Shown here one piece after another: positions 43,646 to 51,368 of a DNA stretch of 64,000 nucleotides (its first letter is position 1; each line of letters starts with the position of its first letter). The stretch lies in the NCBI RefSeq assembly GCF_017745215.1, contig NZ_JAGHZV010000020.1:1-64000 (forward strand), read 5' to 3'. Source of the stretch: Sphingomonas sp. (GTDB taxonomy: Bacteria > Pseudomonadota > Alphaproteobacteria > Sphingomonadales > Sphingomonadaceae). The notes under the pieces are model-generated. The model did no database searches, was not told the DNA's origin, and was given only the letters and a program-made list of their open reading frames with translations. The position numbers and the translations under genes are program-made.

Positions 43646-44481
43646 GACGCGAGCCCCCGGCGGATTTCGGCAAGCCGCGTCATCGCGCGCTCGATCACCG
43701 GGCCACCGCAATTGACGAGACTGCGCGGGAACGAGGCCTGCGTCACGCGCGCGCCGAAATGGGCGAGCGCGCGGGCGCGGATCTGGGCGGCGCGCGAATC
43801 ACCGTCGCGGCCGGGGCGGTCGGGAACGAGCATCACGCGCGGCGGATCGACGATCACGCGCTCGATGGGAAGGGTTCCCGTGAATTGCAGGCCATAATGC
43901 GCCGCCTGATCACGGAAGCCGGCGCGCGTCAGCATCTCGTCGAGCAAATTGCCGCCGCCCGAGACGAGGTTGCCGCCGATCCACACGAGCGCCGGCACCG
44001 GCGCGCCGGGCGGAGGCGCGGCAACGGTGACGGCGCGGTCGATCCGCGCGTTCATCGCCCTGCCCTGCGCTTCGGCGCCGATCGCGGCGGCGAGCTGGGT
44101 GACCTGCGCCTTGCTCGCGTCGATCGTCACCGGCGAATCGAGATAGAGGACCTTGAGCCCCGCCCGCGCGAACGCCTCGCGCGCCGAGGGCGAGGTGAAG
44201 CTGCTCGCGATCAGCAAATCGGGATGGAGCGCGATCACTTCCTCCGCCGTGCCGGTGGTGGCGCGGAAGCGGCGCGCGACGTCGAGCGGGATCGAAGTCG
44301 CCGCGGCGTCCTGCGAATAATGGCTGATCGCGGCGATCCGCCCGGGCGGCACCAGCTCGACGAGCATCGCATCGGCGCAGGGGTTGGTCGAGACGATCCC
44401 CCCGCCACCCCGATTGGCCTGGGGCGGTGGCGCCGCGCAGCTCGCAGCCAGCAGGCAGCATAGCAGCGCGGCGCCGCGCAT
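43642..44481 (-). CDS. btuF: Cobalamin-binding ABC transporter lipoprotein
   Basis: Substrate-binding protein of 279 residues. MRGAALLCCLLAASC is a lipoprotein signal with Cys at the cleavage site. The periplasmic binding fold reads GIVSTNPCADAMLVELVPPG, RFRATTGTAEEVIALHPDLL, PALVWIGGNLVSGGGNLLDE, as in BtuF/FhuD-like proteins. It would hand B12 from the outer-membrane receptor to BtuCD. Start and btuB stop overlap (TGATG). Confidence 0.88.
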   Translation of the reverse strand: MRGAALLCCLLAASCAAPPPQANRGGGGIVSTNPCADAMLVELVPPGRIAAISHYSQDAAATSIPLDVARRFRATTGTAEEVIALHPDLLIASSFTSPSAREAFARAGLKVLYLDSPVTIDASKAQVTQLAAAIGAEAQGRAMNARIDRAVTVAAPPPGAPVPALVWIGGNLVSGGGNLLDEMLTRAGFRDQAAHYGLQFTGTLPIERVIVDPPRVMLVPDRPGRDGDSRAAQIRARALAHFGARVTQASFPRSLVNCGGPVIERAMTRLAEIRRGLAS

Positions 44482-46352
44482 CAGTTGAGCTTCAGCCGCA
44501 CGCCGGCATAGGCCGCGCGGCCATAGGTGCCGTAGCCCGACACGACTTCATACTTCTCGTCGGTCACGTTCTCGATCCGGCCGTAGACCGAGAAACGCTC
44601 GCCGATCGGCATCTCGGCGCGGATGCTGCCGATCGCATAGCCGTCGATCCGCGTGAGATTGCCGGCATCGTTGAAGCTGTCACCCACCATCGTCACCGCG
44701 CCCCCCAGCGAAAGCCCGAACGGCAGCCGGTAGTCGGCCGACACGCTGGCCGTGTCGCGCGGGCGGCGGGCCAGGTCGTTGCCGACGAACCCCGCCGAGC
44801 GATTCTCGGTGTCGGTATAGGTGTAGTTGGCGGTGACCGTGAGCGCTTCGATCGGCTTCACCGCCAGCTCCAGCTCGACACCCTGGGCGCGGGCGCGGGC
44901 GATGTTGCGATAGGTGAAACTGACGAGGTCGAAGTCGATCTGGTTGCGCGTGTCGCGGTGGAACCAGGTCGCAGCGACGCGGACCTTGCCGCCCAGGAAG
45001 CGCTGCTCGATGCCCGCGTCCCAGGCCTTGGCGGTCTCGGGGCGGAGGTCCTTATAGCCATAGAAAGGCGCGAACAGCTGGTAGAGCGTCGGAGCCTTGA
45101 AGCCCTCGTTGTAGCTTGCGCGCAGCAGCGTCGTGTCGCTTGCGCGCACCGCGGCGCTGGCGCCCCAGCTCGCGTGGTTGCCGAAGCGGCTGTGGTCGTC
45201 ATTGCGCACGCCGGCAGTGAGCGTCACGGCGTCGATCGGGGTGACGATCGCCTGGCCGTAGAAGCTGGTGGTGCGCGCACGATAGGTCTTGTCGCCGTCG
45301 AAGAAGCGGCTGGTCTCGCGCTCGGCGCCGAACGCGAAGCGGAGCTGGTCCATCAGCGCCGCGTCGCCGCGATATTCGAAACGCTCGCTGCGGCCGCGAT
45401 AGAGATAGAGCGGCGCGCTTTGGGCCGTGGGATCGAAATTATCGCGATCGATGTCCGCAAGGCTGAAGCCGGCGTGGTTGTCGACCGGGCCAAGCTTCGC
45501 GAAGACCCCGGCATAGCCGTAGAATTCCTTCGCGGTCGAATATTCGGCGGTGTCCGAAAAGGCATAATTGGGCGGCGGGAACCCGTCGAGATCCGTACGT
45601 GAATTGGCGTAATAGGCGCGGACCTCGGCGCCGATGCCGGGCCGGAGCTCGGCCTTGAGCCGGCCGCTGGCATTATACTGGCGATAGCCGTCGGGCTCGG
45701 TGCCGACCGCGGCCTGCGACACGCCGTCGGTACGGAAATAGCCCGCGGTGAGCGCGCCCTGGACATGGTCGCTGCCCGCCGCGATCGCGCCGTTGGCCAC
45801 GATCTGGTCGGCATAGCCGTACTCGGCATTGGCGCGCGCCGAGAGGCCGTCGGCCGGCGCCTGGGTCACGACGTTGACCACGCCGCCGATCGCCTGGCTG
45901 CCCCACACCACCGAATTGGCGCCGCGCAGCACTTCGACGCGCTGGATCGAGCCGGTGAGCAGGTTGCCGAAGTCGAAGGCGCCAGCGGGCGACGACGGAT
46001 CGTTGGCGCGCACGCCGTCGATCAGCACCAGCGTCTGCGCGTCCTCGGCGCCGCGGATGCGCACCGCGGTCACCGCACCGGGGCCGCCGTTGCGCGTGAC
46101 ACCGACGCCCGGCGTGGTCGCGAGCAGGTCGGAGAGGACAACAGTCTGGCGCTGGTCGATCTCGGCGCGGTCGATCACGGTGACGGCGCGGCCCGTATCC
46201 TCGACGCGCTGCTCGACACCCGAGGCGACGACGACGATGTCGTTGGGATCGATACGCAGGTCGGCGATCACGATCTCGTCGTCCTGGGCATGCGCGGCCG
46301 CGGGCACGATCGCCGCGGCAGTGGCCAGCAGCAGCTGGGCAAAGGTCTTCAT
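44481..46352 (-). CDS. btuB: TonB-dependent vitamin B12 receptor
   Basis: Outer-membrane gated barrel of 623 residues. The signal peptide is MKTFAQLLLATAAAIVPAAAHA. A TonB-box-like DPNDIVVVASG precedes the plug domain (GRAVTVIDRAEIDQRQTVVL, LSDLLATTPGVGVTRNGGPG, VRIRGAEDAQTLVLIDGVRA, VEVLRGANSVVWGSQAIGGV). The barrel ends with the typical aromatic/hydrophobic strand YAGVRLKLN. The cobalamin riboswitch directly upstream identifies the ligand. It heads the btuBFCD operon. ATG 46352 follows AAGGGG. Confidence 0.95.
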   Translation of the reverse strand: MKTFAQLLLATAAAIVPAAAHAQDDEIVIADLRIDPNDIVVVASGVEQRVEDTGRAVTVIDRAEIDQRQTVVLSDLLATTPGVGVTRNGGPGAVTAVRIRGAEDAQTLVLIDGVRANDPSSPAGAFDFGNLLTGSIQRVEVLRGANSVVWGSQAIGGVVNVVTQAPADGLSARANAEYGYADQIVANGAIAAGSDHVQGALTAGYFRTDGVSQAAVGTEPDGYRQYNASGRLKAELRPGIGAEVRAYYANSRTDLDGFPPPNYAFSDTAEYSTAKEFYGYAGVFAKLGPVDNHAGFSLADIDRDNFDPTAQSAPLYLYRGRSERFEYRGDAALMDQLRFAFGAERETSRFFDGDKTYRARTTSFYGQAIVTPIDAVTLTAGVRNDDHSRFGNHASWGASAAVRASDTTLLRASYNEGFKAPTLYQLFAPFYGYKDLRPETAKAWDAGIEQRFLGGKVRVAATWFHRDTRNQIDFDLVSFTYRNIARARAQGVELELAVKPIEALTVTANYTYTDTENRSAGFVGNDLARRPRDTASVSADYRLPFGLSLGGAVTMVGDSFNDAGNLTRIDGYAIGSIRAEMPIGERFSVYGRIENVTDEKYEVVSGYGTYGRAAYAGVRLKLN

Positions 46353-46480
46353 CTTGGACACCCCTTGTCTGGGCCGTCCTGCCGTCATGTGGCGAGGGAG
46401 CGACCCGGTTTGGTGTCGCTCGCACGGGGATTTCTCTCCCCGTCCGCCCGGCACACCCCGTCCGCGCAGAGGAATCGACG

Positions 46481-46662
46481 GCGACGGGCAGGTCTCCTGA
46501 CTCCCGGGTCATCGCTGGCGCACCGCCTTCCCGGGCCCAAGGCCCAGTGGCTTGTCTGTGGCACGCCGGCTCGCCGGTCACAGTTGCGGGGGCAGCGCCG
46601 GAATTCCGCCGGCTTCCCTTTTCATCCCCCTCGCGAGGGACACCCGTCACGGAGGCGGCCTC
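46481..46662 (-). ncRNA. Cobalamin riboswitch
   Basis: Adenosylcobalamin-binding leader upstream of btuB. On the minus strand the diagnostic pieces occur in order: GGGAAGCCGG, then the B12 box core GCTGCCCCCGCAACTGT, GCCACTGGGC, GGGAAGGCGG and the closing GAGTCAGGAGACCTGCC. It would shut down btuB expression when B12 is plentiful. The 418-bp gap also holds an AT-richer stretch at about 46690-46700 that could be the promoter. Confidence 0.95.
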
Positions 46663-48492: not shown

Positions 48493-48867
48493 TCAATTGC
48501 GGCTCACGTTCTCGCTCTCGAACAGCCGGTCGACCTCGAGCACCAGGTCGCGCAGGTGGAACGGCTTGGAGAGCACGCGCGCCTGCGGCACTTGCTTGCC
48601 GGCCTTGAGCGTCACTGCCGCGAAGCCGGTGATGAACATCACGCGCATCCCCGGCGCCATCTCCGCGGCGCGCTGGGCGAGCTCGATGCCGTCCATCTCG
48701 GGCATCACGATGTCGGTGAGCAGCAGGTCGAACCGCTCGGTCTCGAGCAGCGGCAACGCCTCGGTGCCGCGGTCGACCGCGCTGACGGCATAGCCGGCAC
48801 GCTCGAGCGCACGAGTAAGATACTCGCGCATCACGCGGTCGTCTTCTGCCAGCAAGATCCGAAACAT
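48493..48867 (-). CDS. cpdR: Single-domain response regulator CpdR
   Basis: Receiver-only protein of 124 residues that in Caulobacter, when unphosphorylated, recruits ClpXP to degrade CtrA and other targets. The sequence is very close to CpdR: MFRILLAEDDRVMREYLTRA, FDLLLTDIVMPEMDGIELAQ with the phospho-acceptor Asp (LLTD), MRVMFITGFAAVTLKAGKQV and VLSKPFHLRDLVLEVDRLF. ATG 48867 gives the conserved start. It is divergent from an N-formylglutamate amidohydrolase gene, as in other alphaproteobacteria. It links functionally to ctrA at 13934. Confidence 0.94.
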   Translation of the reverse strand: MFRILLAEDDRVMREYLTRALERAGYAVSAVDRGTEALPLLETERFDLLLTDIVMPEMDGIELAQRAAEMAPGMRVMFITGFAAVTLKAGKQVPQARVLSKPFHLRDLVLEVDRLFESENVSRN

Positions 48868-48983
48868 GCTTGTCCCACCCGTGAATGACGGGACCGACAC
48901 TATGCGCGAACCCTTTAAGATTTTCCAGATGGCGCGTCACGCGGCATTGCCCCGAATTGACGCCGTCCGTAGGGTTCGTGGCG

Positions 48984-49829
48984 ATGAGCGGAACGCCGTC
49001 CTTCGTGCGCCATGGCCCCGAGTTGCCCGAGAGCCCGGTGCTGCTGTCGGTGCCGCATGCCGGGCGCGACTATCCGCTGGCACTGCGCGCTGGGTTGCGC
49101 GTGCCGCTGCTGGCGCTGCGCCCGCTCGAGGACCGGCACGCCGATTCGGTGGCGATGGCAGCAGCGGCGGGCGAGACGATGTTCGTCGCCCAGCGCGCGC
49201 GCGCCTGGATCGACCTCAACCGCGCCGAGGACGAGCGCGACCCGCGGCTCGACGACGGCGCCCCGCCCCAGCCCCAGCCGCTCTCGGCCAAGCTGCGCAG
49301 CGGCCTGGGGCTGGTGCCGCGCCGCGTCGCCCAGGCGGGCGACATCTGGCTCAGGCGGCTGAGCGACGAGGAAGTCCAGGCGCGGATCCGCAGCGATCAC
49401 CGGCCCTATCACGACGCCGTGGCGGCGGCGCTCGACGCGGCGCGGCGGCGATTCGGCGTGGCGGTGCTGCTCGACCTGCATTCGATGCCGCCGATCGGCC
49501 CTGCCGGCTTCGCGCCGCGCGTGGTGATCGGCGACCGATTCGGCCGCTCGGCGCCGGCGCGGCTGGTCGGACGGCTCGAGGGCGTGGCGCGCGCGCATGG
49601 CGTGCGCAGCGCGATCAACGCGCCCTATTCGGGCGGGCACATCCTCGATCGCCATGCCGATCCGGCGCGTGGCATCCATGCCATCCAGATCGAGCTCGAC
49701 CGCTCGCTCTACCTCGATCCGGCCTTCGACCAGCCCGGCCCCGGCCTGGCGCGCACTGCAGCGATGCTGCGCGCGATGATCGACGCGGTGGCCGATGAAG
49801 CGATGCCCGGCGCAGTCGCCGCGGAATAA
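48984..49829 (+). CDS. N-formylglutamate amidohydrolase family protein
   Basis: Predicted hydrolase of N-formylglutamate to glutamate and formate, 281 residues. Family motifs: PVLLSVPHAGRDYPLAL, ARAWIDLNRAEDERDP, LLDLHSMPPIGP, HGVRSAINAPYSGGHILDRH and GIHAIQIELDRSLYLD. ATG 48984 is the first plausible start (MSGTPSFVRHG). Other hut genes are absent from the window, so a role in histidine breakdown is not shown here. Divergent from cpdR. Confidence 0.9.
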   Translation: MSGTPSFVRHGPELPESPVLLSVPHAGRDYPLALRAGLRVPLLALRPLEDRHADSVAMAAAAGETMFVAQRARAWIDLNRAEDERDPRLDDGAPPQPQPLSAKLRSGLGLVPRRVAQAGDIWLRRLSDEEVQARIRSDHRPYHDAVAAALDAARRRFGVAVLLDLHSMPPIGPAGFAPRVVIGDRFGRSAPARLVGRLEGVARAHGVRSAINAPYSGGHILDRHADPARGIHAIQIELDRSLYLDPAFDQPGPGLARTAAMLRAMIDAVADEAMPGAVAAE

Positions 49830-49855: not shown

Positions 49856-49887
49856 AAAAAACCACCTCGTGCAAGCGCACGAGGTGG
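49856..49887 (-). terminator. Strong terminator
   Basis: Perfect 11-bp stem CCACCTCGTGC / GCACGAGGTGG with a GCTT loop, followed by six T on the minus strand. Confidence 0.88.
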
Positions 49888-49962
49888 CCAAGGTTCAGGG
49901 AGGAGACACGCCCGCAGGCGTGCCGTACGACCTCGCGAAAGGGGGGACACGACGCCGTACAA
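49856..49962 (-). ncRNA. Predicted small RNA, about 105 nt
   Basis: Transcript inferred from a sigma70-like promoter (49968-49996) and a strong terminator (49856-49887). It would fold into three stem-loops: GTACG/CGTAC with a C-rich loop (CCCCCCTTTCGCGAGG), CACGCC-TGCG-GGCGTG, and the 11-bp terminator stem. The linker before the terminator is CTCCTCCCTGAACC, an anti-Shine-Dalgarno-like CCUCC stretch known from several alphaproteobacterial trans-acting sRNAs. No peptide frame of note lies inside. Confidence 0.6.
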
Positions 49963-49967
49963 AAGAG

Positions 49968-49996
49968 AATATAGGCAAGCGGTCGAAAGGTTTCAA
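49968..49996 (-). promoter_or_regulatory. Sigma70-like promoter of the predicted sRNA
   Basis: Minus-strand TTGAAA (49991-49996), 17-bp spacer, TATATT (49968-49973). It lies 40-70 bp beyond the cytochrome b561 stop and points toward the terminator at 49856. Confidence 0.6.
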
Positions 49997-50037: not shown

Positions 50038-50583
50038 TCAGTTGCGCTGCTTGGCGCGCGGCAGCATCCGCGAGGCGATGGTATCACGAAGCAGGAACTG
50101 GTGGCGCAGCGCGGCGGCGATGTGGATCACCACCAGCGCCGCCATCAGATAGCCGAGCAGCTCGTGCGCCTCGCGCGCCGCCTGGGCGATCGGCGTGGTG
50201 ACGGGCAGCAGCGGCAGGTCGAACAGCCAGAAGAAGGTCGCCGGGCGCGGCCGCGCGGGGTTCGACCCGAAGGCCCAGCCGCTGAGCGGCAGGACGATGA
50301 TCAGCACGTAGAACAGCCAATGGACCGACTTGGCGGCCAGTCGCTCCCAGGTCGGCATCGTCGACGGGAGCGACGGCGGCCTGTGCGTCAGCCGCCAGCC
50401 GAGCCGGCCGATGCTGAGCAGCAGCACCAGGATGCCGATCGACTTGTGGATCGGGATCAGGTTCCACGCGCGCGGTGCGCCCTCGTGGAACAGCCCGATG
50501 AGCAGGTTGGCGATGACGAGCGCGGCGATCGTCCAGTGAAAGGCGATCGCCCCCCGGCTGTAACGGTCGCCGCGCTCGATCAT
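50038..50583 (-). CDS. Cytochrome b561
   Basis: Di-haem membrane cytochrome of 181 residues with four helices. Haem-ligand histidines lie in AIAFHWTIAALVIANL, IPIHKSIGILVLLLSIG, SVHWLFYVLIIVLPLSGW and AHELLGYLMAALVVIHIAAAL. A short Arg/Lys C-tail follows. It probably oxidises quinol or moves electrons in the inner membrane. It starts eight bases after the SapC stop, same strand. Confidence 0.92.
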   Translation of the reverse strand: MIERGDRYSRGAIAFHWTIAALVIANLLIGLFHEGAPRAWNLIPIHKSIGILVLLLSIGRLGWRLTHRPPSLPSTMPTWERLAAKSVHWLFYVLIIVLPLSGWAFGSNPARPRPATFFWLFDLPLLPVTTPIAQAAREAHELLGYLMAALVVIHIAAALRHQFLLRDTIASRMLPRAKQRN

Positions 50584-50591
50584 CCGCCTGG

Positions 50592-51368
50592 TCAGCCGAT
50601 AAGGTTCGGCGCGGGCATCTTGCCCTGGGCCATCTGGCGCGCGAAGATCTCGCGGATCTGCGACAGCGAGAAGAGGTGCGCGAAGATGAGCGGCAGCATG
50701 CCGTTCTGCACCATCTTGCGAAGCTGGTCGCCGCGCAGCTCGTTGACCTTGTTCTCGTCGATCATGCGGAAGCCGCGATAGACGAAGGGCTGCGACGCAT
50801 TGTCGGGCTGGATCGAGACCTCGCCGTCGATCAGCAGGTCCATCTCGACCAGCTCCTTGACGAAGGCCGCAGTGTTCTGGCCCGCGCGCTCGAACTGCTC
50901 GTTGAACTGGAGCACTGCCTTGGTGGTCTCGCTCGGCTCGGCGCCGGCGAACAGCGCCTCGCCTTCCTCGAACGCGCCGATCGTGTCGGCAGTCGGGTCG
51001 AAGCAGAGCGAAAGCTCGTCGGTGTCCGGGCGCAGGCGCGCCAGCAGGAACGGATAGCGGCGAACATAGGCCGGCACGTAGAAGGCCTGCTCGAGCAGCT
51101 TGCCGTCCGAATCGAAGAAGACGTTCACGCCCTCGTTGAGGCCCATCAGCGCGAGCGGAATGGGATCGTCGCCGACCGAGAAGACGATCGGCATGTGCCG
51201 CTGGACGAACGGGAATTCCTCGACCGTGACCGGAACGGCATGCGTCGTCGCGAGCGCCGGCAGGCGATCCGAGGGACGCATCTTGAACTCGGCATGCGCC
51301 TGGCTCGAGAGCGGTTCGAGGTCGTTGTAGAAAAGCGGAAGCGTCTGCGGCTGCGGCGCGCTGGCCAT
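50592..51368 (-). CDS. SapC family protein
   Basis: Soluble protein of 258 residues with the SapC signature: PVTVEEFPFVQRHMPIVFSV, IPLALMGLNEGVNVFFDSDG, FYVPAYVRRYPFLLA and LCFDPTADTIGAF. Its function is not established; the family was named after a Campylobacter S-layer locus and is common next to TonB systems in Caulobacterales and Sphingomonadales. Upstream of cytochrome b561 in a two-gene unit. Confidence 0.9.
   Translation of the reverse strand: MASAPQPQTLPLFYNDLEPLSSQAHAEFKMRPSDRLPALATTHAVPVTVEEFPFVQRHMPIVFSVGDDPIPLALMGLNEGVNVFFDSDGKLLEQAFYVPAYVRRYPFLLARLRPDTDELSLCFDPTADTIGAFEEGEALFAGAEPSETTKAVLQFNEQFERAGQNTAAFVKELVEMDLLIDGEVSIQPDNASQPFVYRGFRMIDENKVNELRGDQLRKMVQNGMLPLIFAHLFSLSQIREIFARQMAQGKMPAPNLIG

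Follow-up and report, generated by a model that had tools for sequence, protein, structure and literature searches.

The minus-strand stretch at 49856..49962 of the window (the whole 64,000-nucleotide stretch of Sphingomonas DNA analysed here) is almost certainly a real small RNA gene, and its product is very probably related to the suhB/MmgR RNAs. Our preferred reading, to which we assign a probability of about 0.72, is that the locus encodes an independently transcribed regulatory RNA of ~107 nt, a Sphingomonadaceae descendant of suhB/MmgR that has remained at its ancestral address and would act by Hfq-dependent pairing and repression. The original prediction, which did not recognise the RNA, had placed here a gene for a trans-acting alphaproteobacterial small RNA whose CUCCUCCC stretch could pair with ribosome-binding sites; evidence for the gene now comes from its structure and covariation, the place of its promoter, and synteny. 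RNAs of this kind are known; in the literature searched, we found no description of the variant, of its spread below the Rfam cut-off, or of the way in which RF00519 appears to unite two RNAs.

Architecture of the locus

The locus comprises the following elements.

49991..49996, minus: -35 element TTGAAA (promoter scan and conserved position)
49968..49973, minus: -10 element TATATT (promoter scan)
49856..49962, minus: small RNA gene of a diverged suhB/MmgR type, ~107 nt, from the predicted start
49925..49960, minus: hairpin 1, the 5' hairpin (fold and covariation)
49938..49947, minus: C-rich unpaired loop UCCCCCCUUU of hairpin 1, candidate second anti-Shine-Dalgarno seed
49905..49924, minus: hairpin 2 (fold and covariation)
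49890..49904, minus: unpaired linker CUCCUCCCUGAACCU, candidate anti-Shine-Dalgarno seed
49856..49889, minus: hairpin 3, the intrinsic terminator with its U tail (scan and fold), putative Hfq site by analogy

The promoter that had been proposed, a minus-strand TTGAAA and TATATT separated by 17 nt (49996..49968, minus), is present, as is the perfect 11-bp terminator with six T: its stem reads CCACCTCGTGC-GCTT-GCACGAGGTGG, two G-U pairs lengthen it to 13, and the six T end at 49856, ~112 nt from the -10 element. With a promoter of this housekeeping type, transcription would start near 49962. Neither the promoter nor the terminator signal alone is above chance, because scans of the 10 kb around the locus found about as many sites as scans of shuffles (one promoter-like site versus 0.5 +/- 0.6, and five terminator-like sites versus 4.6 +/- 2.3). 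Among homologues, the spacing between hairpin 1 and the TTG of the -35 element is preserved in 127 of 129 unique loci, compared with 0-28 of 127-129 loci in seven upstream control windows, and the aligned position of the -10 element is moderately conserved. The set of loci behind these counts comprises 149, repeats included, of which 129 are unique; L087, L115, L138 and L168, which lie near fetch edges, were left out of the promoter counts, leaving 145 loci and 129 unique stretches.

Between promoter and terminator, the predicted fold reproduces the two further hairpins and the unpaired CUCCUCCCUGAACCU of the original prediction. The folding energy of the RNA is -59.2 kcal/mol, versus -35.6 +/- 3.2 for shuffled sequences (z -7.3), with none of 200 shuffles as good. 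The three predicted hairpins leave two C-rich stretches unpaired, namely the loop of hairpin 1, where UCCCCCCUUU has an unpaired probability of at least 0.9, and the 15-nt linker before the terminator, which is unpaired at every base with a probability of at least 0.8. Of the two, the loop goes unmentioned in the original prediction.

Covariation and the coding test

For the alignment, L160 was left out since its terminator stem lacks the T run that had been searched for, and from the remaining 128 RNAs the 70 with less than 93% mutual identity were kept (alignment A1). At least 119 of the loci (L061-L179) had been gathered by an exact loop-plus-linker pattern, so that the invariance of loop and linker in A1 is partly forced; the stems lie outside the pattern. 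Two-sided compensatory changes occur in 24 of the 34 pairs that make up the three helices: 10 of 13 in hairpin 1, 7 of 8 in hairpin 2, and 7 of 13 in hairpin 3, where 99.0% of cells are paired. Overall, 96.9% of cells in A1 are paired versus 88.0% in shuffles, and the covariation score of 0.379 compares with 0.196 in shuffled alignments (0/500) and with 0.091 or less when the partners are slid.

Two further sets of loci were free of the pattern. In the first, the best 30 of 34 strong DNA matches, the hairpin-1 loop contains CCCCCTTTCGC and the linker CTCCTCCCTGAACC in 30/30. The second comprises 20 loci from 20 genomes in 16 other genera of the family, hand-picked among the listed strong matches of the covariance model described below (E 9e-20 to 7e-14). 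The same three hairpins are kept in the predicted fold of 18 of these (L212 and L227 fold without hairpin 1 as drawn), the hairpin-1 loop is C-rich in all 20 with a varying sequence (e.g. UCCCCUCAUGG), and the linker carries CCTCCCTGAACCT in 19; in the predicted folds of a few, the linker is partly paired.

The locus had also been said to encode no protein, and we agree: among the 128 homologues every length between 103 and 114 nt occurs, and stop codons interrupt each of the three frames in 58-66 of them. On these grounds we reject a protein-coding reading.

Distribution

A DNA search of 61 genomes, that of the window included, returned strong matches (E <1e-13) in 34, all from the same genus; 37 of the genomes belong to it, and those three that lack a strong match (G007, G015 and G019) are 83-86% complete. 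A covariance model built from A1 (R1) matches 244 of 250 genomes of the genus, among them every one of good quality (222/222); the six that are not matched are 71-86% complete. It is conservation that decides in favour of a real RNA gene. In the order, R1 matches 314 of 396 genomes (302 of 373 of good quality), representing 75 of 84 genera. E-values run from 9e-20 to about 2e-4 in the family outside the genus and from about 1e-8 to 2e-3 in the other families of the order. Under the strict filters used, 82 of the 396 genomes have no match, and at least 20 of these, all that are listed, belong to Sphingomonadaceae, so that within the window's own family the RNA is either not universal or in some genomes too diverged for such filters.

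Relation to suhB/MmgR

At the curated cut-offs, Rfam reports nothing at the locus. The best permissive match there is RF00519 (suhB/MmgR), with 26.8 bits and E 0.00096 over a 281-base stretch, below the gathering cut-off of 41; matches to Betaproteobacteria toxic sRNA, PyrR, anti-hemB, Bp1_781 and ceN48 fall far below their cut-offs and were rejected. Elsewhere in the window, a cobalamin riboswitch (46470-46662, minus, 123.9 bits) lies ahead of the reading frame 44481..46454, which presumably encodes a TonB-dependent receptor. Orthologues in the genus score 28.5-40.2 bits against RF00519, none of 22 exceeding 41 among the matches listed, and of eight loci from other genera four score 32-34 bits and four have no match up to E 0.01. 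Because the curated cut-off is missed, we file the RNA as a diverged variant and not as a member of RF00519. The core of that family, a hairpin followed by an unpaired CCUCCCU linker and a terminator, is present at the locus.

RF00519 itself exceeds its cut-off in 57 of the 61 genomes and in 86 of 190 genomes across the class. In two genomes from one family of another order (L251 in G638 and L252 in G766), three such suhB matches stand in tandem within ~600 bases. As we read them, 32 RF00519 loci form two classes of 16.

Class A, other families of the order (L031-L036, L039, L040, L042-L046, L048, L049, L052): hairpin, UCCUCCCU linker, terminator
Class B, pair in the genome of the window (L234, G000:C32:27102-27174; L235, G000:C13:80967-81040): over-cut-off Sphingomonas matches, a shorter RNA whose linker resembles CCUCUCCUAA(A/G)ACUUU
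Class B, further loci (L037, L038, L041, L047, L050, L051, L053-L060): as above

A second model (R3) was made from 30 RNAs of other orders alone, without Sphingomonadales, on the hairpin-linker-terminator structure, and was searched in 48 sources. It recovers the window locus at a modest 23.6 bits (E 2.6e-4 over 259 kb), all 19 Sphingomonadaceae RNAs at this position that were searched (17.5-39.6 bits), and the 13 class A RNAs searched at 56-71 bits; 12 of the 16 class B RNAs match at 10.3-15.4 bits and four are unmatched, so that a narrow margin separates the best of the short RNAs (15.4) from the lowest-scoring RNA at this position (17.5). In the reverse direction, R1 matches all 16 class A RNAs and all seven other-order RNAs searched at 28-42 bits, while in the 16 class B sources it gives 10.3 bits at the L235 RNA and a partial match of 21.1 bits elsewhere in L050. 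These reciprocal matches, together with the shared address described below, lead us to regard the RNA as a positional relative of the suhB/MmgR RNAs of other orders. They also suggest that in Sphingomonas RF00519 joins two different RNAs, and that the ones we read there above its cut-off are not the positional counterparts of other-order suhB.

A probably ancestral address

The genes next to the RNA are the following; the fifth neighbour that was typed is an FAD-linked oxidase.

48885..49829, plus: N-formylglutamate amidohydrolase (FGase, PF05013), convergent; the true start may be further in
48493..48900, minus: CpdR response regulator (NF046022, 196.5 bits, cut-off 180)
50038..50592, minus: cytochrome b561 gene (PF01292), upstream; the frame is open further up and the start is putative
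50592..51368, minus: SapC-family gene (PF07277), upstream (family match)

CpdR is a cell-cycle regulator. In the 149 loci (129 unique), some of which end at contig or fetch edges, FGase was found in 126, SapC in 123, CpdR in 113 and cytochrome b561 in 69, and since cytochrome b561 was detected in just 69/149, the RNA is not tied to it. In the other genera of the family, FGase is convergent and CpdR present in 20/20 loci, and SapC and the FAD-linked oxidase in 19/20. FGase is likewise convergent in 12 of the 16 flanks examined for the suhB/MmgR RNAs of other Sphingomonadales families, with CpdR next in 6/16, and at the 3' side of 24 of the best-scoring 30 loci of other orders (L240-L269; neighbours within 1.5 kb), 11 of which have CpdR as well. 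No FGase was found in the 16 class B flanks examined. The counts support an RNA that still lies at its ancestral address, convergent to FGase and with CpdR beyond. This address is a feature found in the present analysis and is not taken from a published definition. Lagares, Roux and Valverde are said to have treated the distribution of mmgR in 2016, and may already report the linkage to FGase.

A convergent arrangement that recurs in family, order and class invites the thought that the RNA acts in cis on FGase, either as an antisense to its 3' end or through a transcription block between the two convergent genes. We consider this improbable, if the least so of the alternatives: 26 nt separate the end of the RNA from the FGase stop codon, and any overlap would require read-through; some Sphingomonas loci (L025 and L026 among them) keep the RNA with no FGase detected in the flank; and the unpaired C-rich parts would be left without a role.

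Mechanism and targets

We favor instead a trans-acting RNA. By analogy with its relatives, it would be bound by Hfq at the U tail, and the linker and hairpin-1 loop would pair with the Shine-Dalgarno regions of mRNAs encoded elsewhere, an interaction that would block their translation. On these analogies, the probable mechanism is that the two unpaired C-rich stretches bring about a repression of translation that depends on Hfq. In the accessible text of PMC8844928, AbcR1/2 of Sinorhizobium use two anti-Shine-Dalgarno seeds to repress translation, for the most part with Hfq, and the review PMC6563040, in the part available, describes a 61-nt SuhB of Sphingopyxis granuli that binds the thnR 5' UTR and represses translation with Hfq. 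MmgR limits PHB granules, and as of the review PMC7143759, as far as its available text goes, no direct mRNA target of it had been described.

Hfq is encoded in all 31 genomes searched. In the genome of the window it is a single reading frame that contains two tandem Hfq domains (L302, G000:C22:134160-134582), and two side-by-side Hfq matches occur in 18 of 19 genomes of the genus, this one included, the remaining genome having a single match. A pattern search of the same genome for TCAGGGAGG with an ATG 2-10 nt downstream returned four rows in three start regions, with proteins unrelated by eye. The pattern occurs in 55 of the 61 genomes, and any Shine-Dalgarno-like pattern should exceed a reversed-pattern control.

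That neither pattern search, in the own genome or across the 61, yielded convincing mRNA targets is what would be expected if the RNA did not pair with mRNAs but worked chiefly as a sponge or protein ligand that titrates, for example, Hfq or another small RNA. We consider this improbable, as the 15-nt unpaired linker is conserved past its CUCCC core and the relatives act on mRNAs (available text of PMC6563040 and PMC8844928).

Promoter input

According to the part of PMC12542648 that is accessible, PhaR binds the mmgR promoter at a site with the core YGCRNYGCR. We counted this core in rule-placed promoter windows of 80 nt and in shuffles preserving base counts only. It is present in 24 of 30 other-order promoters (0.5 in shuffles), in 10 of 16 class B promoters (0.3), in 18 of 129 positional promoters of Sphingomonas (2.8) and in 0 of 16 from other Sphingomonadales families; 13 of the 18 belong to a single promoter type that has the core upstream of the -35 element. 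The promoter of the RNA in the window contains no YGCRNYGCR core and hence no PhaR (AniA) site like that of S. meliloti mmgR, and because this PHB-sensing core is missing, the signal input probably differs from that of most of the other-order relatives examined. PhaR itself (PF07879) is encoded in 28 of the 31 genomes searched, including all 19 of the genus. Class B promoters are also rich in TTGCA/TGCAA repeats (3.75 per 80 nt, at least two in 16/16) and have CGCACTTGCA repeats, the recurring motifs being in part PhaR-like. Taken together, the counts suggest that the PHB-linked input has moved to the class B RNAs, and that it is missing in the other Sphingomonadales families too (0/16 cores).

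It is possible, if rather speculative, that this reflects a split of an ancestral function. The RNA at the old address would have kept the seeds and lost the PHB-sensing promoter, becoming a general repressor with a plain promoter, two different C-rich seeds and a tandem double-domain Hfq, and PhaR-type input would have passed to the separate short RNAs.

Discussion

Before the RNA is accepted as an independent gene, it should be asked whether the locus might be the 3' untranslated end and terminator of an upstream cytochrome b561 or SapC transcript, as it lies on the same strand and follows the stop codon of cytochrome b561 at a distance of ~75 nt. We think this very unlikely: the RNA is present in all 149 loci (which were chosen by it) and cytochrome b561 in fewer than half, the -35 TTG is fixed in nearly all unique loci, and two hairpins besides the terminator covary. 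Membership in AbcR (alpha-r15), RNAs of 114-121 nt with three hairpins and two anti-Shine-Dalgarno seeds that repress transporter mRNAs, is very unlikely despite the similar length and layout, as the family model RF02345 excludes it (cut-off 40 bits; three weak matches in the own genome, the best at 21.7 bits, none here and one on contig C9, L239) and as AbcR1/2 are reported to adjoin lsrB in S. meliloti (accessible text of PMC8844928), whereas lsrB is not among the five neighbours typed at this locus.

A descendant of suhB/MmgR with its own promoter thus remains our reading. Our literature search, which reached few subscription papers, found no paper on this RNA in Sphingomonas and hardly any small-RNA work on the genus; the available part of a paper on Zymomonas small RNAs (PMC6970203) contains nothing comparable. 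What the analysis provides is a genus-wide RNA of Sphingomonas with an evolutionary identity and a fixed address, fit for deletion and target mapping. The apparent presence of two RNAs under RF00519 bears on how findings on PHB control made in rhizobia can be applied to sphingomonads.

Comparison with known systems

AbcR1/AbcR2 (RF02345) resemble the Sphingomonas RNA in having three stem-loops (PMC7143759, available text) and anti-Shine-Dalgarno seeds in both the 5' loop and the linker. Their seeds, CUCCUCCC in the 5' loop and UUCCCCUC in the linker (PMC8844928, accessible part), are near those found here, but in opposite places, and they differ further in their neighbours and in a family model that the Sphingomonas RNA does not match. 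SmelA075/SmelA099 and NfeR1, compared by description, likewise repeat C-rich anti-Shine-Dalgarno motifs; in SmelA075/SmelA099, however, the motif lies in each hairpin loop, whereas here it occupies one loop and one linker. A candidate from Paracoccus, 'Intergenic 60', has relatives in Sphingomonadales according to the part of PMC5107571 that is available. SuhB of Sphingopyxis granuli TFA is also a sphingomonad RNA, but at 61 nt versus ~107 nt it appears, by length, to fit the short RNAs of class B. MmgR is a Hfq-dependent RNA of 77 nt with three stem-loops (PMC7143759, available text), shorter than the ~107-nt RNA of Sphingomonas. With the suhB/MmgR RNAs, the RNA described here shares the hairpin, the unpaired UCCUCCCU-AAC linker, the GGCC terminator stem and a convergent FGase gene, often accompanied by CpdR.
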